Notes: a model not told the origin generated them from the sequence alone. Shown: positions 13,910 through 24,956, counted from the stretch's first letter. The stretch is 43,343 nt of DNA from Verrucomicrobiales bacterium (GCA_022361255.1 JAKSBG010000390.1:1-43343), one strand, 5' to 3'. Made by a program: numbers and translations.

Positions 13910-15361
13910 ATGAAATTCGCAACGACTCTCCTGCTGGCCTTCTTTTTCCTCTCCTCGTCACTTTTTGCCCGGACATGGAAGCAAAAGGAAACAGGTAAAG
14001 AAATCGAGGCGGAGCTCGTGAAAGTGGAAGGGGGAAAAGCACACCTCCGGCTTGCGAACGGTCGCGTGGGACAGGTCGATATCACCTCTTTGAGCGATGC
14101 TGATCAGGAATTCATTAAGCAGCAGGCTTCGGGCGGATCGACGAATTTTGCGAGTTCAGCGGGAGCCAATTGGCCACAGTTCCGGGGGGCGAACCATGAT
14201 GGGATTTCGCCCGACGCCGATCTCCTCGACGAATGGCCCGAGGGCGGACCTGAGAAGCTCTGGGTTTACGAAGGCGCAGGACTGGGGTATTCAGGCATCA
14301 TTGTTGTAGGCGGAAAGCTTTTCACCCAGGGCACTCAGGGCGACGACGTCACTGTGGTTTGCGTCGACGTTGCTTCCGGGAAAGAAGTCTGGAATACAAG
14401 TTACTCGAAAGATGATCAGCAGGGATACAGTGCAGGTTGGGGGCACGGGCCGCGTGGTACGCCGACGTATTCTGACGGCAAAATTTATGCTCTCGGTCCC
14501 AAAGGGACTCTCGTCTGCCTCAATGCCGAAGACGGCAAAAAGGAATGGGACAAGAACTACGTGGATGATTTTGGTGGCAAATGGGGGGGATGGGGATATT
14601 CCGCATCTCCGTTTGTGGATGGAGAAAATCTCATTATTGCCCCGGGTGGGGAGGATGCAGGAATTGTCTGTCTGAAGAAAGACACCGGAGCAGTCGTATG
14701 GAAAGCCAGTGATGTGAAGCCCGGAAAAGCGGAGTATGCCACAATCGTTCCGGCCGAGATCAACGGGGTGAGACAGTATGTGCGTCTTTTTGAGAGAGAA
14801 CTGGTCGGGGTCGCCGCAGAGGACGGGAAGCTGCTCTGGAGCTCTCCTTGGGATGGAAAGACAGCAGCGATTCCGACACCGATTGTCGACGGGAATGAAA
14901 TCTATATCACCTCAGGCTACGGTGTGGGATGCAAGCTCGTCCGGGTGAAAGAGGACTTTTCCACTGAAGACGTCTGGGTGAATAAAACCATGAAGAATCA
15001 CCACGGTGGTGTCGTGAAAGTCGGTGAAAAGCTCTACGGATTTTCTGACGGAGGAGGCCTCATCTGCCAGGATTGGGATTCCGGTGAAATGACCTGGAAC
15101 GAAAAAGGGCAATACACTTCCAAAGGTTCGGTTCACGTCGCGGATGGAAAACTCTATGCTTTGAACGAAGGGGATGGTGTTCTTACGCTGGCTGATGCAA
15201 GCCCGGACGGATTCGAGCAAAAGGGACAACTGACTCTTGAACCGCAGAGCGCGAACAGAAATCCGAAAGGCAAGATCTGGACTCACCCCGTCGTGGTTGG
15301 TGGAAAGCTTTTTCTTCGTGATCAGGAAATCGTGATCTGCTACGACGTCAGTGCAAAGTGA
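13910..15361 (+). CDS. Exported SHD1 + PQQ-binding-like beta-propeller protein
   Basis: The 483-residue protein has a signal peptide (1-20, ending SSLFA) and then an SHD1 (SLA1 homology 1) domain at 21-70 (RTWKQKETGKEIEAELVKV ... VDITSLSDADQEFI). From about 84 (WPQFRGANHDG) it is a PQQ-type/BamB-like propeller with repeated VCVDVASGKEVWNTSY, LVCLNAEDGKKEWDKN and IVCLKKDTGAVVWKA blades. This architecture is frequent in Planctomycetes and Verrucomicrobia, where such proteins are periplasmic and mostly uncharacterised. Whether it binds PQQ cannot be told. A second SHD1 domain ends the thioredoxin-like protein at 25374-26066. The ATG at 13910 gives the signal peptide directly. Confidence 0.88.
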   Translation: MKFATTLLLAFFFLSSSLFARTWKQKETGKEIEAELVKVEGGKAHLRLANGRVGQVDITSLSDADQEFIKQQASGGSTNFASSAGANWPQFRGANHDGISPDADLLDEWPEGGPEKLWVYEGAGLGYSGIIVVGGKLFTQGTQGDDVTVVCVDVASGKEVWNTSYSKDDQQGYSAGWGHGPRGTPTYSDGKIYALGPKGTLVCLNAEDGKKEWDKNYVDDFGGKWGGWGYSASPFVDGENLIIAPGGEDAGIVCLKKDTGAVVWKASDVKPGKAEYATIVPAEINGVRQYVRLFERELVGVAAEDGKLLWSSPWDGKTAAIPTPIVDGNEIYITSGYGVGCKLVRVKEDFSTEDVWVNKTMKNHHGGVVKVGEKLYGFSDGGGLICQDWDSGEMTWNEKGQYTSKGSVHVADGKLYALNEGDGVLTLADASPDGFEQKGQLTLEPQSANRNPKGKIWTHPVVVGGKLFLRDQEIVICYDVSAK

Positions 15362-15399
15362 TCGGGAGTCGGTTTCGCTAAACTGGGACTGGTCGTCGA

Positions 15400-15437
15400 G
15401 TCAGCAGGGTTCAGTTACTCCTGCAACCCTGGTTGAC
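15400..15437. repeat. Three-box intergenic repeat, copy B (boxes 1 and 2)
   Basis: TCAGCAGGGTT at 15401 and CAACCCTGG from 15424 keep the exact 25-base box-1 to box-2 offset seen in the full copies. The GTCGA preceding box 1 matches the copy at 32382. Box 3 is lost. The copy lies between the PQQ-type gene and the CPBP protease gene. Confidence 0.65.
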
Positions 15438-15478
15438 GTCGCTTTCGAGGCATCCCTTTTCCGGCCCCCGCATTTCAC

Positions 15479-16924
15479 ATGATTGAAATTCCGCCGTCTT
15501 CCCGGCTCGGTCCACCCGCATTGCCTAACGAGAAGGCGGGACTATGGGCCTGGCCGCTTGTCGTTCTCTCGGTATTTTTCATCGGTTGGTCGGTGAATTT
15601 GTTTTCTCCGGATTCTCCTGTAGCTGAATCGGGTGAGAATTCTTCCGAGGTTGATCCTGCGGACCTGGCGATGCTGAAGATTCAAAGTCAGGTCATCATT
15701 GCTGCTGGAACTCTCAGTCCGGCAGAGGCAGGGCAAACGCTGGAGGAACTGCGTGAGATGGGAGGTGGCGACCGGGGAATTGCTTCGATCGCTATGCTGG
15801 AGAGCTTTCTGAAAGTCCCGGGATCCAATCCCGAAAAGACCGCAGAAAATATCTCCAGTGAAGCATCAGAGGAAATGCGTGAACTCGTGCTGAAGGCGGT
15901 AACGGAAGGAGTTGAAGATGGGGAGAGGGAAGCGTTAAAAGCCTATCTTGGATGGTTTGCGGAACTGGCCCGTGCCCCGGGTCTGGACCCGCCACCGAAA
16001 TCGACAGAGATCCGGACCCGTGCGCTCGTATTTTTGCTCGTTGTGGCAAGTGTTTTTCTGGTCGCGCTGGGGGCCATCATTTTCGGCGGCGTAGCGATTA
16101 TTACGATGATCGTCCGTCAGCGTGAGGGGAAGAAGGTCTCTTACTTTGACAAAAGCGTCAGCCCACGGGGAGTCATGTTGGAGTGCTTTGCCATTTACCT
16201 CGGAATAATGGCACTGGGTGAGGTGGCGGGAGTTGCTGCGCTACGATTCGGAGGAGATTTCCAGATGCTCGTGTCATCTCCGTCGGTGCCGATGATTTTC
16301 TTCGGGGCATCTGTCGTCATTCCGTTCCTCTGGCCAATATTTCGCGGGATTCCCTACCGTGCTTTTCTCCGATCACTTGGAGTTCATCGCGGCAAAGGTA
16401 TGATTAAGGAAATTGGGGCCGGAATCATCGGGTATGCTGGTGTTGCTGTGTTTGCGTCGATCGGAATTTCGCTCACTCTCTTGCTGACACTTGTAGTGGG
16501 GTGGTTCGATTCTTTGCCGGTTTCCCCGGAGGGCTTACCGGGTGGATCCGAAGCGAAGGGCGGTCCCTCGCCCGGGCCTACCACGCATCCAATTGTGGGA
16601 TGGATCTATCAGGGAGGGGTTGTCGAAAGAATGTTGTGTCTTCTCTTGGCATCGGGCTTCGCGCCGCTCTTCGAAGAGTTGTTCTTTCGCGGGGCTCTTC
16701 ATCGATACCTGCGAGGGCGTTTCAAGTTTTTGGTGTCAGCAGTTTTGACAGGATTGATCTTCGCAGCACTTCATCCGCAGGGTTGGATGGCGATTCCTGC
16801 GCTGACAGCTATGGGAGCGGGATTCTCGATGCTACGGGAATGGAGGGATTCGCTTATCGCGCCGATGGTCGCTCATGCGGTGAACAATGGGATCCTCGTT
16901 GGTATCCTGTGTCTTGGACTTTAG
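15479..16924 (+). CDS. CPBP-family intramembrane metalloprotease (CAAX protease/Abi-like)
   Basis: The 481-residue multi-pass protein has an N-terminal helix (about 24-43), a soluble helical segment (55-175) and then a cluster of membrane helices (from 182). The CPBP/Rce1 signature is present: EELFFR at 399-404 (EExxxR), a His in AALHPQG near 432, and a His/Asn pair in MVAHAVNN near 466. These form the metal and catalytic site in the family. Bacterial members process prenyl-like or peptide substrates or act in bacteriocin immunity and stress. A specific substrate cannot be given. The extra N-terminal soluble domain is not part of the core family. ATG 15479 begins just after a short gap holding repeat copy B. 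Confidence 0.88.
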   Translation: MIEIPPSSRLGPPALPNEKAGLWAWPLVVLSVFFIGWSVNLFSPDSPVAESGENSSEVDPADLAMLKIQSQVIIAAGTLSPAEAGQTLEELREMGGGDRGIASIAMLESFLKVPGSNPEKTAENISSEASEEMRELVLKAVTEGVEDGEREALKAYLGWFAELARAPGLDPPPKSTEIRTRALVFLLVVASVFLVALGAIIFGGVAIITMIVRQREGKKVSYFDKSVSPRGVMLECFAIYLGIMALGEVAGVAALRFGGDFQMLVSSPSVPMIFFGASVVIPFLWPIFRGIPYRAFLRSLGVHRGKGMIKEIGAGIIGYAGVAVFASIGISLTLLLTLVVGWFDSLPVSPEGLPGGSEAKGGPSPGPTTHPIVGWIYQGGVVERMLCLLLASGFAPLFEELFFRGALHRYLRGRFKFLVSAVLTGLIFAALHPQGWMAIPALTAMGAGFSMLREWRDSLIAPMVAHAVNNGILVGILCLGL

Positions 16925-17156: not shown

Positions 17157-19208
17157 ATGTCATTTACATTCCGAAATCTTTTCTCTGAAGAAGATGGAAC
17201 CCCCGGCGCGGAGCCCCCCGGCGATAGTGCCAGCGCTAGTGGTCGAAACGCTGCCGAAGGGGTTCCGGGGGAGAGAACACCGGAAGGAGAAAACCCTGTC
17301 GATTCCGCTCCCTCGGCTCAGGCAGCTAGTGCGCAGGCCTTTCAGGTAAACGAGCTGTTGCCGTTTATACCCCCCGCGATCTCTGCAGAGAGTGGAATTC
17401 CCATGGAAAAGGAAGTGTTGATTCCAATGCCCGCAGACGGGAGTGGTGACGTCTCGCTTTCGACAATTTATCGGATTGTTCCGGAGTTGTTTGCCGCGGA
17501 AATCACTCCGCTCAATGATTCGAAAGTGACGCTTCCCACAAAACTGGGCGGAATGATGGGGGAGTCGGCACAAGGTGGTGGGAGTCCAGGGCAGACTGTT
17601 TCAACGCAGAAACTGACCGGTGGGGGGACGGACAATCCATTCTGGTCACCAGGGGTGGACGAAACTTCTGTTGCAGCAAAGGCAGCCGCCCCTTCCGGGA
17701 AGCCACCAGTCAGCCAGGAAGTCGGCGGGCAGGGGGAGACGAAAAGTCCGTTTGGTGCACCCGAACCCTCCCCGGAGAACCCATTCGCTGAATTTGAGGA
17801 TATCATGCCGGGCGGGCAGGAAGTTGAGGTCTCAATTCCGACAGGATTCGAATCACCGGAATCGAAAGCCCGGGAGGAAGCGTCCGGTGAGCCGGTTGAC
17901 GGGGGAGGGGAATCTCCGCCTGATGCCCAGCCCGGGTTCGGGACGGGTGCAAATCCGTTCGCAGATTTGAATTCTCCCGGTAGTCCACCGCCTTCCGCGC
18001 CGCAACCGGAGCAGGTTGCTCCCGCCGGGTTGAATCCGTTTGACAGTGATGCGGGATTTTCGACTCTTTTCTCCAAGGAAGCCGATAAAGACAGTGATAT
18101 ACCGTTTCCTGATTCCGGGAGCAAAGAATCGAAAAGGGAAGACGATGGTGACTCCTGGGGCGCGATGTTTGATGCTGATCTGGCACCTGGTTCTGGAGAA
18201 GAAGACGCGGAAAAGCCCAAATCGGAGGCTGTTTCGAATAGTCCGGCACCAGGACCGCTGCCGTCAGGTTTTAATCAGGGGTTTGGCGATATGATCAATC
18301 AGAGCAGTGTTGCAGCGGAGTCTTTCGCGCCGAAAGAGGAGGCTCCTGCCGCGGCTGAGTCGAAGGAGGATCTACCATCAGGTTTTCAGTCCGTAGAAGG
18401 TTTCTCACCACCTGAATCAAGCGCTCCTTTTGAAGAAGGGGAGAAGGAAAAACCAGCCCCTGAGGAGCCGGAAGCGACCGAAGTCGAACGCATCGAAACG
18501 GCTCCTGAACCGACTATGGAGGAAGAATCCCCCTCATCTGATTTTTCCGCTTTTCCAGATTTCGCTCCCATCGGTGACCCTGCTGGATCTGAGGCAAAGC
18601 GTGATGTCTGGAGCGATGGAGGTGACCATACCCCTGAACCCAATTTTCAGCTGGATGACCTCGGAATTGCAGTTCCGGAATCTGGCGTTGAGCCGACCGT
18701 CGAAGAACCGGTTCCTTTCGGGGATGACGATTCCGCTGAGTCGGAAGAACCTGAAATTCGTGTAGAGACGGTAGCTCCCACTGCAGGTCCAGCCGAATCT
18801 ATGCAAGTCGACGGGGATATCAGTCTCCGGGATTTGGAATTTCGCGCTATTTTTTCTACCGATGAGAGTTTTACCCTCGCTGCACTGGCCCGGAAGATTG
18901 TCGGCCTTCAGGGGATTGAAGGGTGTGCGCTTGCAACCAGGTCAAAACTGGTTCAGGCCTCAAAAACGGAGCAGAGCAGTCTCGGTAGCGAGGCGAGGGA
19001 AATGATTGGTACGATTCGAAATCTCGCCAAACTTACCGGTCTCCCGGAGGCCCGTTCATTTACTCTCCATACTGATCGCGGAACCGTCAGCCTTTTTCTG
19101 GAAGGGGAATGCTGCGTGACAGTAAATCATTCATCTGCGGGATTCAGTCCCGGGGTGAAAGAGAAGCTCATCTTGATTGCTCGAAACATCCACAAACTCA
19201 AGGAATAA
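17157..19208 (+). CDS. Long acidic disordered protein with C-terminal roadblock/LC7-like domain
   Basis: The 683-residue protein is Pro/Glu/Ser/Gly-rich and very acidic up to about residue 555, with no membrane segment or signal peptide, so it is predicted disordered and cytoplasmic. Four NPF motifs stand out (residues 160, 208, 266, 293), each in an acidic setting, plus SGFNQGF and SGFQSVEGF near 370 and 405. The last 125 residues fold like a roadblock/LC7 domain: GIEGCALATRSKLVQ, a helix, then SFTLHTDRGTVSLFLEGECC and a final helix. Roadblock proteins such as MglB are partners or GAPs of small GTPases. The next gene, 7 bases downstream, is an MglA-like GTPase, so this is probably one of its partners. 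It is the first gene of the cluster. Confidence 0.75.
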   Translation: MSFTFRNLFSEEDGTPGAEPPGDSASASGRNAAEGVPGERTPEGENPVDSAPSAQAASAQAFQVNELLPFIPPAISAESGIPMEKEVLIPMPADGSGDVSLSTIYRIVPELFAAEITPLNDSKVTLPTKLGGMMGESAQGGGSPGQTVSTQKLTGGGTDNPFWSPGVDETSVAAKAAAPSGKPPVSQEVGGQGETKSPFGAPEPSPENPFAEFEDIMPGGQEVEVSIPTGFESPESKAREEASGEPVDGGGESPPDAQPGFGTGANPFADLNSPGSPPPSAPQPEQVAPAGLNPFDSDAGFSTLFSKEADKDSDIPFPDSGSKESKREDDGDSWGAMFDADLAPGSGEEDAEKPKSEAVSNSPAPGPLPSGFNQGFGDMINQSSVAAESFAPKEEAPAAAESKEDLPSGFQSVEGFSPPESSAPFEEGEKEKPAPEEPEATEVERIETAPEPTMEEESPSSDFSAFPDFAPIGDPAGSEAKRDVWSDGGDHTPEPNFQLDDLGIAVPESGVEPTVEEPVPFGDDDSAESEEPEIRVETVAPTAGPAESMQVDGDISLRDLEFRAIFSTDESFTLAALARKIVGLQGIEGCALATRSKLVQASKTEQSSLGSEAREMIGTIRNLAKLTGLPEARSFTLHTDRGTVSLFLEGECCVTVNHSSAGFSPGVKEKLILIARNIHKLKE

Positions 19209-19215
19209 AACAAAG

Positions 19216-19845
19216 ATGGCTTTGATTCATCACGAGCGGGACGAAATTCATTTTAAAGTCGTTTATTGCGGCCCGCCTCTTGGCGGAAAAACGACTAATA
19301 TTCACTACATTCATCGTCGTTTGGATCCGAGGTGGCGTGGGGACATGGTCTCAATTGCGACTGAGCAGAATCGCACGATCTCTTTCGACTTTCTTCCCGT
19401 CGAAGCGGCAGAGATCAATGGATACCGGGTAAGAGTCCAGTTGTACACAGTACCGGGTCAGGAAGTGATGAGGGAAACGCGGAAGGCAGTGCTCGCCGGA
19501 GCCGATGCGGTTGTATTTGTGGCGGATTCAGCTCCCGGAAGACTGGAGTCAAACCGCAGGGCATTGGACGACACATACTCGTGTCTTCGTGAAAACCGCA
19601 TTGCGCCCGAAACCATTCCGTTTGTGTTTCAATTTAACAAAAGAGATCTCGTTAATGCAACGCCGCCTGCAGTTCTCGATGAGGTGCTCGAGGTGACGTC
19701 CCCGAGTTTTCTCAGTTGCGCCTCTACCGGATATCAGATCTTTGCGACGCTGGATTGGACCACCCGGCAGGTCATCAAAGGATTTCGCCGCTCTATCGTT
19801 TCAAAAAACAGCCATCGACGAGCCGCTATTGAAGCGGTAGTATGA
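19216..19845 (+). CDS. MglA-like small GTPase
   Basis: The 209-residue Ras-like GTPase is close in layout to Myxococcus MglA. It has the P-loop YCGPPLGGKTT (17-27), Arg53 in the ATEQNRT stretch at the position of MglA's intrinsic arginine finger, TVPGQ with Gln82 at the MglA catalytic glutamine position, VVFVADS, and NKRD (141-144) for guanine recognition. The residue numbering matches MglA as I recall it. Position 21 is Pro where MglA has Gly. MglA switches between polar GTP-bound and diffuse GDP-bound states and recruits motility machinery. The start is ATG 19216, not the earlier in-frame TTG at 19177 that overlaps the preceding gene. It is flanked by two roadblock proteins, the usual regulators. 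Confidence 0.9.
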   Translation: MALIHHERDEIHFKVVYCGPPLGGKTTNIHYIHRRLDPRWRGDMVSIATEQNRTISFDFLPVEAAEINGYRVRVQLYTVPGQEVMRETRKAVLAGADAVVFVADSAPGRLESNRRALDDTYSCLRENRIAPETIPFVFQFNKRDLVNATPPAVLDEVLEVTSPSFLSCASTGYQIFATLDWTTRQVIKGFRRSIVSKNSHRRAAIEAVV

Positions 19846-19874
19846 GGGTGTTTTGAATACGGTTGGAGTTTTTC

Positions 19875-21344
19875 ATGGAAAAGGAAGAGCAGAATGACGG
19901 GGATGTTTCCCCGGCGGTACCATTGGAGATTAGCGCAGAACTGGTAACACAGGTCGACGACCAGTTGCGAGACTTTGCTGAGGATGCGGAACTGGAAACG
20001 GCTTTGGTTGTCGATCAAAGCGGAGCAGTGGTATCAGGAATTTCATCAGAAGAGGAAGTTACGATTGAGGTGATTTCGGCACTTGTCGCTGGTGCCTGTG
20101 GAGCGATGCGGGCTTTGGTATCTGAGCTGGGGGAGACAAGTGGTATCGAAAGTTTCCATCAGGGCGAGAACCGGGTTGTGTACCTGAGTGAAATCATTCA
20201 CCGGTTTGTACTGGTGGGGGTTTGCAGAGCGGGAACTCCGGTTGGAGTGATTCGGGAAACCGCAAACCAGATCAAGCCGGCACTTGTTGACCTGTTGGTT
20301 GATTTGGAAGTTCCCGAGCTGCCGGCGGATCCGGATCCTCCGAAGCGATCCTTCCGACGAATAACAGCGAGCGCTGCATCGGTTGCAGCGATGCGGGAAA
20401 CTCCATTTACGCAGGAGGAAGAAATTGTTGAGGGTGTCCGTGAAGAATCGGAAGCGAAGGAGGCTCTCGAGGAGCCGGAGGAGGAAGTGGCAGAAAAGAG
20501 TGGAGGGGGACACGACATCGAAAGGGAAGGCGACGCGGAGGATCCTCCCGGCTCGGAAGAGGTTGAAAGGATGAAGGAGGAGGTGGTTTCATCCGAAGAT
20601 GCCGTAGATAAATTAGAAGAGCAGGGGGTGGAGAACGAGTCATTCCTCGAAGAACCGGAACCGTTTGTTGAAGAACCGGAACCGTTTGTTGAAGAACCGG
20701 AGCCGCCTGTTGAAGGGCCGGAACTGTCTGTTGAAGAACCGGAGCCGCCTGTTGAAGAGGCTGAGCCAGTCATTGAAATTCTTGACTTTGGCGAGCCGGA
20801 GATCGTAATCGAAAGTTCCGTTTCAGGGACTTCGGAGGAGGTTTCAGAGTCGATCTTCGAAATGGCCGATGAATCGGATACTGAGTCGACGGGGGTGGAC
20901 GAATCGCAGACGTCCCTTTCGGAAACAGCAGATTCAATCTTTGAGCTGGAATCCGAACCGGCGGAGGGAATATCAGATACAGGCGATTCTCCAGGAATTT
21001 TTGAGGTGGATGAGGAAGATTCGTCCTTAAGGGAACCATCCGGGGAGAGGGAGGGGGCGCTTGAGTCCAATTCAGTTCCTTCGGATTTTTCGAATATTCC
21101 GGGCGCGATTGAATCCGTCCCCGAGACTCATCCTGAGAATATCTTTGAATTAGAAGAAGAATCCGTTGAAGAGGAGTATATGCCGCTGGAGGAGGTGAAA
21201 CGACCTGTGGAGGAGTCTGTTGCCCCCGATATTTTTGAAATCGATGAGGAGGAAACAGATACCGTTGATTCACCCGCGGAGGATTCAGGACAAGAGGAAG
21301 AGCAGGAGCAGGAGGGCGGAATCTCCAGGCCTCAATATTTTTAA
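19875..21344 (+). CDS. Roadblock/LC7 (MglB-like) protein with long acidic repeat tail
   Basis: The protein is 489 residues from ATG 19875, which has GGAG six bases upstream; an earlier TTG at 19863 is less likely. Residues 15-140 form a roadblock/LC7 domain: VDDQLRDFAEDAELETALVV, DQSGAVVSG, a helix with ALVAGACGAMRALVSELGE, then RFVLVGVCRAGTPVGVIRE. The remaining 350 residues are acidic and predicted disordered. They contain six 7-residue EEPEPxV units (about 259-300) and five IFE(M/L/V/I) motifs at 327, 355, 375, 423 and 453, each followed by acidic residues. The domain is the likely MglB-type partner of the GTPase 29 bases upstream. The repeated motifs look like multivalent docking sites. 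Confidence 0.82.
   Translation: MEKEEQNDGDVSPAVPLEISAELVTQVDDQLRDFAEDAELETALVVDQSGAVVSGISSEEEVTIEVISALVAGACGAMRALVSELGETSGIESFHQGENRVVYLSEIIHRFVLVGVCRAGTPVGVIRETANQIKPALVDLLVDLEVPELPADPDPPKRSFRRITASAASVAAMRETPFTQEEEIVEGVREESEAKEALEEPEEEVAEKSGGGHDIEREGDAEDPPGSEEVERMKEEVVSSEDAVDKLEEQGVENESFLEEPEPFVEEPEPFVEEPEPPVEGPELSVEEPEPPVEEAEPVIEILDFGEPEIVIESSVSGTSEEVSESIFEMADESDTESTGVDESQTSLSETADSIFELESEPAEGISDTGDSPGIFEVDEEDSSLREPSGEREGALESNSVPSDFSNIPGAIESVPETHPENIFELEEESVEEEYMPLEEVKRPVEESVAPDIFEIDEEETDTVDSPAEDSGQEEEQEQEGGISRPQYF
20649..20774 (+). repeat. Six tandem 21-base units coding EEPEPxV
   Basis: Units begin at 20649, 20670, 20691, 20712, 20733 and 20754. The first two are identical at the base level and the third and fifth are identical to each other, so recent slippage or unequal exchange is likely. 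The frame is kept because the unit is 7 codons. Copy number may vary between strains. Confidence 0.9.
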
Positions 21345-21467
21345 ATCTACACTGATCCCAGCCGGGAAAATTCCCACTTTTCCCGATTCCGGGGCTATGG
21401 TAAGAGGTTCAAAGATTCAGAAGCGGCGAATCGAAGCCGTGCCCAATCGCAACACATCTCATAAGCA

Positions 21468-22139
21468 ATGGATTTAATCACCAAAGGCGGGCCTCTCATG
21501 TGGCTTCTGCTCGGTTGCTCGATCATCGCGATAGCTATCTTTCTGGAGCGACTTTTCTACTTTCATCGTGCTAGAATCGATGTCGGTGATTTGATGTTCG
21601 GTTTGCGTAACCTCATCAAAAACAAGGCTTATGCCGAGGCTCTTTCTGAGTGTGCGGCAACTCCCGGTCCCGTGGCACGGGTCATTCATTCTGCTATTCG
21701 TCGCTATTCTTCTCCCAGAAGCGAACTGAAAGAAATTGTTCAGGAAAGCGGCCAGTTGGAGGTTCCAAAACTGGAGAAGCATCTCGCCGTTCTGCTGACC
21801 GTAGCCTACATCGCTCCTCTTATCGGACTACTGGGATCGGTGCTTGGTTTGGTTGATACCTTTGTTCAAATCAATGCGGTCGGTGGATTTGCTACCGTTT
21901 CCGAAATCTCTCAGGGAGTTTACGAGGCCCTGATTACATCGGCAGCAGGCCTCATGGTGGCCATCCCGGCATTTGTCTTTTATTCCCACCTTCGGGCTTA
22001 CGCGAAAAACATCATGCATGACATGGAAAGCGCCGGTATTGAAATCGTGAATGCGATTTGTGATTTTCGGAATGCTCCGACTGATATCATATCAATCCGT
22101 CCGGATTCGAAGGAAGATGCGGCTGAAGAAAACGGGTAG
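21468..22139 (+). CDS. ExbB/TolQ/MotA-family proton channel protein
   Basis: The 223-residue protein has the ExbB/TolQ plan: an N-terminal membrane helix (about 8-27), a cytoplasmic helical domain, then two helices around 105-130 (VAYIAPLIGLLGSVLGLVDTF) and 145-170 (VYEALITSAAGLMVAIPAFVFY). The GLLGSVLGL and TSAAGL segments include the small and Thr residues lining the proton path in the family. With ExbD it forms the stator-like motor that harvests proton motive force for a partner protein. It lies 123 bases after the roadblock gene and 3 bases before exbD. Sequence alone does not separate ExbB, TolQ and AglR roles. Confidence 0.92.
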   Translation: MDLITKGGPLMWLLLGCSIIAIAIFLERLFYFHRARIDVGDLMFGLRNLIKNKAYAEALSECAATPGPVARVIHSAIRRYSSPRSELKEIVQESGQLEVPKLEKHLAVLLTVAYIAPLIGLLGSVLGLVDTFVQINAVGGFATVSEISQGVYEALITSAAGLMVAIPAFVFYSHLRAYAKNIMHDMESAGIEIVNAICDFRNAPTDIISIRPDSKEDAAEENG

Positions 22140-22142
22140 CCT

Positions 22143-22592
22143 GTGAATTGCTCTGGCAATTCAATCAATAAGAACTGGAATTTCCAATTGAAACTGGAAT
22201 CAACATTGGGCGACCGGGCCGGGATGCTCTACACGGGGCCGCTTGTCGATGTCATATTGTTGCTTTTGATCTTCTTCCTCTTCGGATCAAACTTCGTTCT
22301 GAAATCCGGCGTCGAAGTTAAGTTGCCGCTCTCGAATTCGGTGCTCCCGGCTGCGGAGGACGCGCATATCATTACGCTGATACCGGAGGACTCATCTGAA
22401 TTCTATTTCAACGACGAGCGTGTCGATCTTGCTGGACTTGAATCAAGGCTTGATGCCGCATTCACAAGATCGAAAGAGGTCATTCTCCTCGCGGATAAGT
22501 CCATTGACTACGGAACTGTCATGGAAGTTTCTCAACTTGTTTTGCGAAGAGGATTTGAAGTTTCGTTCGCGACGCAAGAAGAAGGGCTCTGA
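22143..22592 (+). CDS. ExbD/TolR-family protein
   Basis: The 149-residue protein starts with GTG three bases after exbB. It has a cytoplasmic N-terminus, one membrane helix with the essential Asp (GPLVDVILLLLIFFLFGSN) and a periplasmic C-terminal domain with the ExbD pattern (LPLSNSV, then EVILLADKSIDYGTVMEVSQ and a final strand). The Asp in LVDV is the proton-carrying residue of the family. It partners with ExbB and the TonB-like protein encoded one base downstream. The N-terminal stretch before the helix is longer than in typical ExbD. Confidence 0.92.
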   Translation: MNCSGNSINKNWNFQLKLESTLGDRAGMLYTGPLVDVILLLLIFFLFGSNFVLKSGVEVKLPLSNSVLPAAEDAHIITLIPEDSSEFYFNDERVDLAGLESRLDAAFTRSKEVILLADKSIDYGTVMEVSQLVLRRGFEVSFATQEEGL

Positions 22593-22593
22593 G

Positions 22594-23358
22594 ATGCGGA
22601 ATACTTTTTTCACAAAGCACTTGGTGCACGGGGAAGGTGAAAAAGATCCCGAAATGGATTCGGTTTTCAACTGGACGAAAAATCAACGGGCCTGGATGTA
22701 CCTGACCGGGTTTTTGTTTTTTTCGCTTATTATTCACGGAGCGGGATTCTATCTTTTCAAAGTGGTTTACCCGGCGCCGACCCGCATTGAAGCGAAAGGC
22801 GAGTCGATAACATTGATGGATCCGACTGATCCGGGTGTGCGAGCTTTGATGAAACGGATTGAAGACCGGACCGTTTTTTTATTTCCCCCTTCAAAGGATG
22901 CCGGAATCCGCGTGGAAATCGGAGAAGGTGATGTCCGGTATAGTCCTTCCTATCGGGATGCAAACCTTGAATTGAAGCAGCCCAGCTATCCCTGGAGTCT
23001 TCCACCTGCAATAGATACCGTCATGCCGCCTGCCGGTCTGAACGCTCCGCAACCACGATTTGACGTTGCCTTTCTGGGCGCAATATCAGAATGTAAAGTC
23101 GCTCCCTGGTCGATACTCCAGGATTATCTGGAGCAGTTAGATGCCCTTCCCTCTCTTTCAGTGAAGCTCTCTGTATTGCGTGACGGGACTGTTGCTGTGG
23201 CCGGTGTGGAGGGGGATATGTCGGAAAGTGACCGAAAGAAATTTGCCGATGTCGTGGAGACTACGTTGCGCTTTCTACCCGTGGATGATCCAGTAGAAGG
23301 GCGAATCAGGATTCAGAAAAAGCCCGGCAGATCTTCGCAAATGATTGAATCCGAGTAA
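22594..23358 (+). CDS. TonB-like single-pass protein
   Basis: The protein is 254 residues from ATG 22594, one base after the exbD stop. Its cytoplasmic N-terminus of about 35 residues leads to one membrane helix (MYLTGFLFFSLIIHGAGFYLF) followed by a periplasmic region with scattered prolines. The C-terminal 80 residues (LSVKLSVLRDGTVAVAGVEG ... TTLRFLPVDDPVEGRIRIQK) resemble the beta-alpha-beta TonB/TolA C-terminal fold, where DGTV is typical. It most likely receives energy from ExbB/ExbD and transmits it across the periplasm. It lacks the usual long Pro-Lys/Pro-Glu spacer, so its reach may be short. It could alternatively be a third motor subunit. Confidence 0.72.
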   Translation: MRNTFFTKHLVHGEGEKDPEMDSVFNWTKNQRAWMYLTGFLFFSLIIHGAGFYLFKVVYPAPTRIEAKGESITLMDPTDPGVRALMKRIEDRTVFLFPPSKDAGIRVEIGEGDVRYSPSYRDANLELKQPSYPWSLPPAIDTVMPPAGLNAPQPRFDVAFLGAISECKVAPWSILQDYLEQLDALPSLSVKLSVLRDGTVAVAGVEGDMSESDRKKFADVVETTLRFLPVDDPVEGRIRIQKKPGRSSQMIESE

Positions 23359-23369
23359 TTTTAAATACC

Positions 23370-23609
23370 ATGTTTCCTGTCACCCTTGATGGAATGATTG
23401 CAGTGTTTCTCGCGATTATTCTCTGTTCTGTCTTCTTTGCCTGGGTGGCAGCCGAAGTTTTCCAGAAAGGTCGTGAGAACCGGAGAAGGAAATACTTCGT
23501 TATCTACAATATTTGCGATCACGTTTTTGAAGATCCTTCAGAACATGATCTCGCGGAGTGTCCCCGCTGCGGGGCAATGAATGAGAGGGAGAAGGTTATC
23601 GAAATTTGA
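23370..23609 (+). CDS. Small membrane protein with C-terminal rubredoxin-like zinc ribbon
   Basis: The 79-residue protein has an N-terminal membrane helix (about 8-30), a basic stretch (KGRENRRRK) and a compact metal site: Cys in YNICDHVFED and CPRCG near residue 66, with His residues nearby. It lies 11 bases after the TonB-like gene on the same strand, so it belongs to the motor cluster by position. A cytoplasmic ribbon tethered to the membrane next to the motor is the likely arrangement. Function unknown. Confidence 0.75.
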   Translation: MFPVTLDGMIAVFLAIILCSVFFAWVAAEVFQKGRENRRRKYFVIYNICDHVFEDPSEHDLAECPRCGAMNEREKVIEI

Positions 23610-23708: not shown

Positions 23709-24956
23709 ATGGAGCGACGAGTAGTCATTACAGGTATGGGAATCGTGTCACCGGTCGGGAACGATCTAGACACGGCATGGTCAAATCTGGTTGCAGGAAA
23801 GAGCGGGGTGGCCCGACTACAAGACCCCGCATTGGAGGGCTACGATTGCCAGATTGCCGGGGAAGTAAGGGATTTTGATGCGGCTCCCTATTTTTCGAGC
23901 CCGAAGGACGCACGTCGCAGCGATCGTTTTGCCCAACTGGGAATGGCCGCTTCGGTGATGGCGATGGATGATTCCGGGGTTGATCTCGACAAGGTGGACC
24001 GGGATCGTTTCGGTTGCATGGTTGGTAGCGGAATCGGAGGATTGACGACTCTCGAGACGCAGCACAAAAACCTTCTCTACAAAGACCCGAGCCGCGTTTC
24101 CCCGTTCACCATTCCGATGATGATCGCGAATATTTCCAGTGGGATGGTATCGATGGAATACGATTTGCGAGGTCCCAATATGTGTATCGTAACTGCCTGT
24201 GCGACATCGAATCACAATATCGGAGAAGCGTGGCGTATGATCAAATTCGGTGACGCTGATGCCTTTATTGCCGGCGGATCAGAATCGACGATCTGCCCGA
24301 TGGGCCTTGCCGGATTCGGGAATATGAAAGCTCTCAGCACCCGGAATGACGAACCTGAGCGGGCTTCACGTCCGTTCGACGTTGACCGGGACGGCTTTGT
24401 GATGGGCGAAGGCGCAGGTGTGGTTGTGATTGAAGAATTGGAGCACGCGAAGAAGCGCGGGGCACGGATATATGCGGAGCTTACCGGATACGGTGTATCC
24501 GCTGACGCTCATCATCTCACTTCACCCCATCCGGAGGGCGACGGTGCAGCCCGGTGTATGGAAATGGCGATCAAACATGGCGGTATTTCCCGTGAGAAAG
24601 TCGATTATGTCAACGCTCACGGAACCTCGACCGGTCTGGGCGACGTTTGCGAAACCAAAGCGATCAAAAGGGTTTTCGGAGATTACGCGAAAGACGGCCT
24701 CATTGTCAGCTCGACGAAATCCATGACCGGGCACCTGCTGGGAGCTGCCGGGGGGATTGAGCTTGCCGCCTGCGTTCTGGCAATTCGTGATGGAGTGATT
24801 CCTCCAACCATCAATCTCGAGAATCAGGATCCCAAGTGCGATCTCGATTACGTGCCGAACCAGGCCCGCGAAGTGGAAATCAAGACGGCTCTGACAAACT
24901 CTTTCGGGTTTGGCGGCCACAACGCCTCGCTTCTCGTTCAGAAATTCGAAGAGTAG
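23709..24956 (+). CDS. fabF: 3-oxoacyl-ACP synthase II
   Basis: The 415-residue condensing enzyme elongates acyl-ACP with malonyl-ACP in type II fatty acid synthesis. The catalytic triad is complete: Cys164 in TACATSNH, His304 in VNAHGTSTGLGD, and His342 in STKSMTGHLLGAAGG. The N-terminal RRVVITGMGIVSPVGND and the C-terminal TNSFGFGGHNASL blocks are also typical. It follows the motor cluster by 99 bases on the same strand; no terminator is seen between them, so it may be partly co-transcribed. No other fab genes lie in the window. The assignment to FabF rather than FabB follows length and motif form. Confidence 0.95.
   Translation: MERRVVITGMGIVSPVGNDLDTAWSNLVAGKSGVARLQDPALEGYDCQIAGEVRDFDAAPYFSSPKDARRSDRFAQLGMAASVMAMDDSGVDLDKVDRDRFGCMVGSGIGGLTTLETQHKNLLYKDPSRVSPFTIPMMIANISSGMVSMEYDLRGPNMCIVTACATSNHNIGEAWRMIKFGDADAFIAGGSESTICPMGLAGFGNMKALSTRNDEPERASRPFDVDRDGFVMGEGAGVVVIEELEHAKKRGARIYAELTGYGVSADAHHLTSPHPEGDGAARCMEMAIKHGGISREKVDYVNAHGTSTGLGDVCETKAIKRVFGDYAKDGLIVSSTKSMTGHLLGAAGGIELAACVLAIRDGVIPPTINLENQDPKCDLDYVPNQAREVEIKTALTNSFGFGGHNASLLVQKFEE

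Follow-up and report, generated by a model that had tools for sequence, protein, structure and literature searches.

A roadblock and MglA-type GTPase gene set adjoining a TolQ/TolR-like motor set in a Verrucomicrobiales bacterium

The closest described counterparts of the locus reported here are the MglA/MglB systems of Myxococcus and Thermus, in which a Group 1 GTPase, defined by an intrinsic arginine beside the G2 threonine and by TVPGQ (PMC4316618), is accompanied by an MglB roadblock protein. In Myxococcus xanthus, the gliding effectors of MglA include AglR, a TolQ-type motor subunit, and GltJ, with pilus effectors known too (PMC12288465), and there are two roadblock proteins, MglB and MglC, per GTPase (PMC9481161). 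Actinobacterial conservons (Cvn) also hold a roadblock gene and an MglA-family GTPase gene in one set which, unlike the cluster described below, has a Group 2 GTPase together with a histidine kinase and CvnC (PMC4316618). Here we describe positions 17157-23609 of a 43,343-nucleotide stretch of DNA from a Verrucomicrobiales bacterium (GCA_022361255.1, JAKSBG010000390.1:1-43343; the window). The region consists of two adjoining gene sets, A (rb1-GTPase-rb2) and B (exbB-exbD-tonB-znr, then fabF), with the following features:

17157-19208, + strand: rb1, 683 amino acids (open reading frame; AlphaFold2 (AF2) model; Foldseek; PF03259 in orthologues; N-domain profile)
17349-17540, + strand: N-terminal domain of rb1 (domain profile; fold search)
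19216-19845, + strand: MglA-type small GTPase, 209 amino acids, Group 1 signature (Pfam; motif alignment; group definition from PMC4316618)
19875-21344, + strand: rb2, N-terminal MglB-like roadblock domain and, after it, a long acidic tail of low complexity (PF03259, MglB chains, NCBIfam)
21378-21406, + strand: promoter-like element in the rb2-exbB gap (consensus match only; conserved in the genus)
21468-22139, + strand: exbB, ExbB/TolQ-type proton-channel subunit (PF01618; TolQ chains in PDB)
22143-22592, + strand: exbD, ExbD/TolR-type subunit (PF02472; TIGR02801)
22594-23358, + strand: tonB, TonB/TolA-like transducer (SxxxH helix; TonB_C in some orthologues)
23370-23609, + strand: znr, small membrane protein, zinc-ribbon-like at its C-terminus (open reading frame)
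23709-24956, + strand: fabF, beta-ketoacyl synthase (Pfam; follows the motor genes in most relatives)

All seven genes from rb1 to znr are read from the sequence on the + strand, with 7 nt between the rb1 stop (19208) and the GTPase ATG (19216), 29 nt between the GTPase stop (19845) and the rb2 ATG (19875), 123 nt between the rb2 stop (21344) and the exbB ATG (21468), 3 nt before the exbD GTG (22143), 1 nt before the tonB ATG (22594) and 11 nt before the znr ATG (23370). An earlier note on this DNA had described such a same-strand cluster, encoding two roadblock proteins, an MglA-like GTPase, ExbB, ExbD, a TonB-like protein and a membrane zinc ribbon; the coordinates and the gaps of 1-123 nt bear out the arrangement, and profile, structure and motif evidence agrees with the families named.

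Conservation of this arrangement was followed in 57 relatives, 338 genomes of the phylum and 365 genomes of the class. The GTPase gene adjoins exbB on the same strand in families f1, f4 (G054), f18 (G302) and f124 (G603), G302 having pilB-rb1-GTPase-rb2-exbB-exbD-tonB-znr in a single run, and the order rb1-GTPase-exbB recurs in a further named Verrucomicrobiota record (L204). In f10, the switch and motor sets are convergent and ~5 kb apart in 7 of 9 genomes. Adjacency in 5 of ~36 GTPase-bearing families, against a chance rate of ~0.003, has a probability of ~1e-7 (about 8e-8) under an assumption of independence that the families behind the figure do not fully satisfy. On a tree, the linked state needs 12 changes, which fits an old arrangement that keeps breaking. 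As switch and motor genes adjoin in no fewer than five of the families in this class, their neighbourhood is not accidental and is probably old.

The most informative result comes from genomes without the GTPase. In f15, which gave no match to such a GTPase, rb1 lies 12-61 nt upstream of exbB in 6 of 8 sampled genomes, and in the GTPase-less genome G568 (f102) the distance is 37 nt (the counts in both families cover rb1 adjoining exbB only). This position directly upstream of exbB suggests that it is the roadblock protein that is tied to the motor, and not the GTPase. Closer to the window, the GTPase is absent from between rb1 and rb2 in G011 and G016 and frame-broken in G014, with both roadblock genes still beside exbB in all three; in G022, rb2 lies beside exbB with no GTPase match, on a contig lacking the stretch upstream of rb2. 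An assembly error is possible for G014; for G011 and G016, where the gene is cleanly absent, it is less likely. Two further GTPases have lost G2 or G3 motifs (Arg53 and PGQ in G030, locus L068; PGQ in G025, locus L054) and would be either decaying or repurposed copies. Given these absent, broken and decayed copies, the GTPase appears to be the dispensable part of the neighbourhood, the roadblock gene being the part most faithfully kept beside the motor.

The GTPase itself matches Arf/Ras-type Pfam models in a profile search and MglA of Thermus and Myxococcus with E values of 7e-43 to 9e-41, its Arg53 and Gln82 aligning at the MglA positions. It has the P-loop GPPLGGKT (GxxxxGKT), Arg53-Thr54, with the arginine beside the G2 threonine, TVPGQ in G3 and NKRD (NKxD), and rb2 directly downstream places an mglB-like gene within the four-gene distance that characterizes Group 1. 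By every sequence mark it is a Group 1 MglA with predicted hydrolytic activity, encoded in single copy in the genome. This signature, together with AglR among the MglA effectors (PMC12288465), upholds the comparison drawn in the earlier note with MglA and a motor of TolQR/ExbBD kin. The rb2 product matches Robl_LC7 (PF03259, 4e-7), MglB chains (6e-8) and the NCBIfam MglB model (2.6e-11, under the model's cut-off), contains the one Pfam roadblock domain of the genome and is an MglB-like roadblock protein. A short aromatic motif, PFYF or similar, tends to precede its stop codon (21330-21344) and is kept across the genus despite the disordered tail before it.

The rb1 product combines an N-terminal domain (~aa 65-128, 'IPP...CPELF'), a long, low-complexity, disordered linker with NPF repeats and a C-terminal roadblock domain (~aa 558-680). 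The window protein has no Pfam match, and Robl_LC7 (PF03259) is matched in 11 of 47 orthologues; the C-terminal domain is modeled by AF2 with a predicted local distance difference test (pLDDT) score of 90, with MglB and Ragulator as top Foldseek matches, and the predicted structure identifies rb1 as a roadblock protein. The N-terminal domain (~65 residues) has no Pfam, NCBIfam or PDB fold match, is duplicated in many relatives and is almost confined to rb1-type proteins among the loci searched. A giant rb1-like open reading frame in G429 (L136) was set aside, because it spans undetermined bases and is trustworthy only in the final ~55 residues. The pairing of two roadblock proteins with one GTPase recalls M. 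xanthus MglB and MglC, the latter with an entry in PDB, 7ct3; unlike these, rb1 has the extra N-terminal domain and the long disordered linker. Unlike the mglB-mglA order of Myxococcus and Thermus, which is also the usual one outside Verrucomicrobiota, the order here is rb1-GTPase-rb2, and the neighbours are motor or PilB genes.

Among the motor proteins, ExbB matches PF01618 at 8e-28, with TolQ chains as its best matches in PDB, and ExbD matches PF02472 at 3e-19 and TIGR02801 (tolR) at 2e-12, under cut-off; both score slightly better with TolQ/TolR than with ExbB/ExbD models, all below equivalog cut-offs. A single ExbD is encoded, between exbB and tonB, and its transmembrane helix keeps the Asp (GPLVDVILLL). 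The tonB product has an N-terminal transmembrane helix with SxxxH (SLIIH), a Pro-rich middle and a C-terminal domain; TonB_C is recognised in 7 of 49 orthologues, the window protein having no Pfam match. The znr product, read directly, has one hydrophobic segment, a CPRCG Cys pair motif and one further Cys; it has no family match, and its gene is kept after tonB in most class members examined. Taken together, exbB, exbD and tonB are predicted to encode a TolQ/TolR-like proton motor with a TonB-like transducer. The set shares with Tol-Pal its best ExbB/ExbD sequence matches, a predicted TonB/TolA-like transducer and near-universality in the phylum; unlike Tol-Pal, there is no TolB_N match in the window's genome (G000, ~96% complete), and the membrane zinc ribbon and fabF occupy the place where tolB-pal would stand.

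The two sets differ in distribution. Orthologous exbB is present in 57/57 relatives and the GTPase in 41/57; across the phylum sample, motor genes are found in 271/338 genomes vs 35/338 for the GTPase, figures that are indicative only given their different E-value limits, and the class sample has the GTPase in 91/365. In the phylum sample the motor genes are near-universal and also occur where the GTPase is missing; the motor would be core to the phylum and the GTPase an optional input. The order rb1-GTPase-rb2-exbB-exbD-tonB-znr-fabF is kept in 16 genus members whose contigs are long enough; it is broken in 6 others, four of which form one clade in the ExbB tree. As side observations, record L164, titled Akkermansia muciniphila, carries the GTPase set, although its counterpart G044 lies outside genus f2/g4, which looks like Akkermansia and is without the set; the title is probably wrong. 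Upstream of rb1 (13910-16924), genes for a PQQ-type beta-propeller and for a CPBP (Rce1-like) protease are kept through most of the genus, even with exbB unlinked, and f10 and f11 have an IMP dehydrogenase-like gene between znr and fabF (L103 10705-11880, L129 6127-7356).

The rb2-exbB gap contains a promoter-like element that was seen by comparing relatives. In the window it reads TTTTCC, 17 nt, TAAGAG preceded by TGG, by consensus match only; the genus form is TTGGCG or TTTGCC, 17 nt, TGnTA, and most genus members have it ~65-90 nt ahead of exbB. A generic sigma-70 scan returned nothing in the gap, and the shuffle test is partly circular, the scoring pattern having been shaped on these same sequences; the stronger points in favor of a promoter are the near-fixed position and the presence in unlinked genomes. 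Since the element is conserved in linked and unlinked genomes alike, the switch and motor sets are likely to be two transcription units. A terminator and separate promoter dividing the sets had been named in the earlier note as evidence against a single machine; of these, the promoter-like element was found, and no convincing terminator was.

A second recurrent neighbour of the switch is a PilB/MshE-type ATPase, whose gene adjoins rb1-GTPase-rb2 in f10, f18, f22, f26, f81, f100 and f106 (PilB-type loci L102, L103, L104, L106, L123, L125, L133, L135 and L139); the two such ATPases run through Pfam have T2SSE and MshEN domains. This neighbour suggests control of pili or polarity and not of gliding; as type IV pili are a known MglA output, the switch may act on pili, on the motor or on both. 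Co-occurrence of PilT with the GTPase was given little weight as a sign of a pilus role: PilT is present in 90/91 genomes with the GTPase vs 247/274 without it (p ~0.005, counted by eye, relatedness uncorrected), and is near-universal in the class (337/365).

Based on the above data, we tentatively propose, somewhat short of regarding it as probable, that an MglA/MglB-type spatial switch works for envelope machines and is probably linked to the motor through the roadblock protein. In this mechanism, rb2 and/or rb1 would govern GTP cycling by the GTPase in the manner of MglB, and rb1 would use its extra N-terminal domain to recruit the switch, or rb1 alone, to an envelope machine, namely the TolQ/TolR-like motor here and the PilB-type pilus ATPase in relatives. 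Such recruitment would set where or when the machine works; the motor would not need the GTPase, which would act as an optional input. A more specific version, which we consider rather doubtful, is that rb1 is a cytoplasmic regulatory partner that binds the motor through its N-terminal domain and positions it with or without the Ras-like switch, as suggested by the survival of rb1 beyond the GTPase in several lineages. Several observations weigh against our proposal: linkage is broken in six members of the genus and, beyond it, in most of the order, the very separation in relatives that the earlier note had set against its model; the promoter-like element separates the sets; the PilT co-occurrence says little; and a repeatedly breaking old arrangement could be gene order inherited without function.

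A serious alternative, although we think it somewhat improbable, is that the sets are neighbours only, with a switch for type IV pili or polarity as in other phyla, a housekeeping motor and an order inherited without functional meaning. It would explain why exbB has its own promoter-like element even where it lies elsewhere, why the motor is far commoner than the GTPase and why a PilB-type ATPase is the other recurrent neighbour; the convergent sets of f10 allow no co-transcription, and outside Verrucomicrobiota there is one weak, distant ExbB neighbour among ~70 MglA loci. However, it sits poorly with the survival of adjacency in several arrangements and with an rb1 that stays right in front of exbB in genomes with neither the GTPase nor a linked PilB gene.

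That the motor is a regulated Ton system energising TonB-dependent receptors is quite improbable. The SxxxH and TonB_C-type transducer and the four TonB-dependent receptors in the window's genome would suit it, but one of these receptors, on contig C453, has another ExbB pair next to it, the ExbB of the window resembles TolQ more closely, and the motor set is retained even in the 0.9 Mb genome G086. We therefore favor, by inference, a Tol-like housekeeping role for this motor over receptor energisation, although the window's genome gave no TolB match.

More improbable still is a single dedicated machine, driven by protons and controlled by the GTPase, such as one for gliding on the model of Myxococcus Agl-Glt: the AglR and GltJ effectors of M. 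xanthus MglA, the likeness of an MglA-type switch and a TolQ-type motor (on which it acts in Myxococcus) and a TonB-like protein reminiscent of the TonB-like motif of GltG are outweighed by motor genes without the GTPase in most of the phylum, GTPase loss with the rest of the cluster retained, a single ExbD where the Agl motor has two TolR-type subunits, and no Glt genes noticed around the cluster, the whole genome not having been searched for Glt families. The gliding suggested by the earlier note thus finds no evidence, the switch also adjoining a PilB-type ATPase. Of its self-contained GTPase-controlled machine, a long-standing roadblock/motor neighbourhood stands, including in GTPase-less genomes; the self-containment does not, with a motor far more widespread than the GTPase and kept without it, sets that become unlinked and a promoter-like element between them.

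The locus is thus a real, unusual gene neighbourhood of the MglA/MglB kind, with a testable roadblock-motor link. A 2014 survey listed only Group 5 MglA in Verrucomicrobiota (PMC4316618); if our assignment is true, Group 1 would be extended to this phylum and a two-roadblock arrangement with a new domain added. How TolQRA-type motors reach the right cell position has been described as largely unknown (PMC12204202). If an MglA/roadblock switch, or the roadblock protein alone, positions the motor, the question of motor placement would gain a genetic handle outside Proteobacteria. Genomes whose GTPase is intact, decayed or deleted, and those with none found beside the motor, already form a natural series for testing which part the motor requires.

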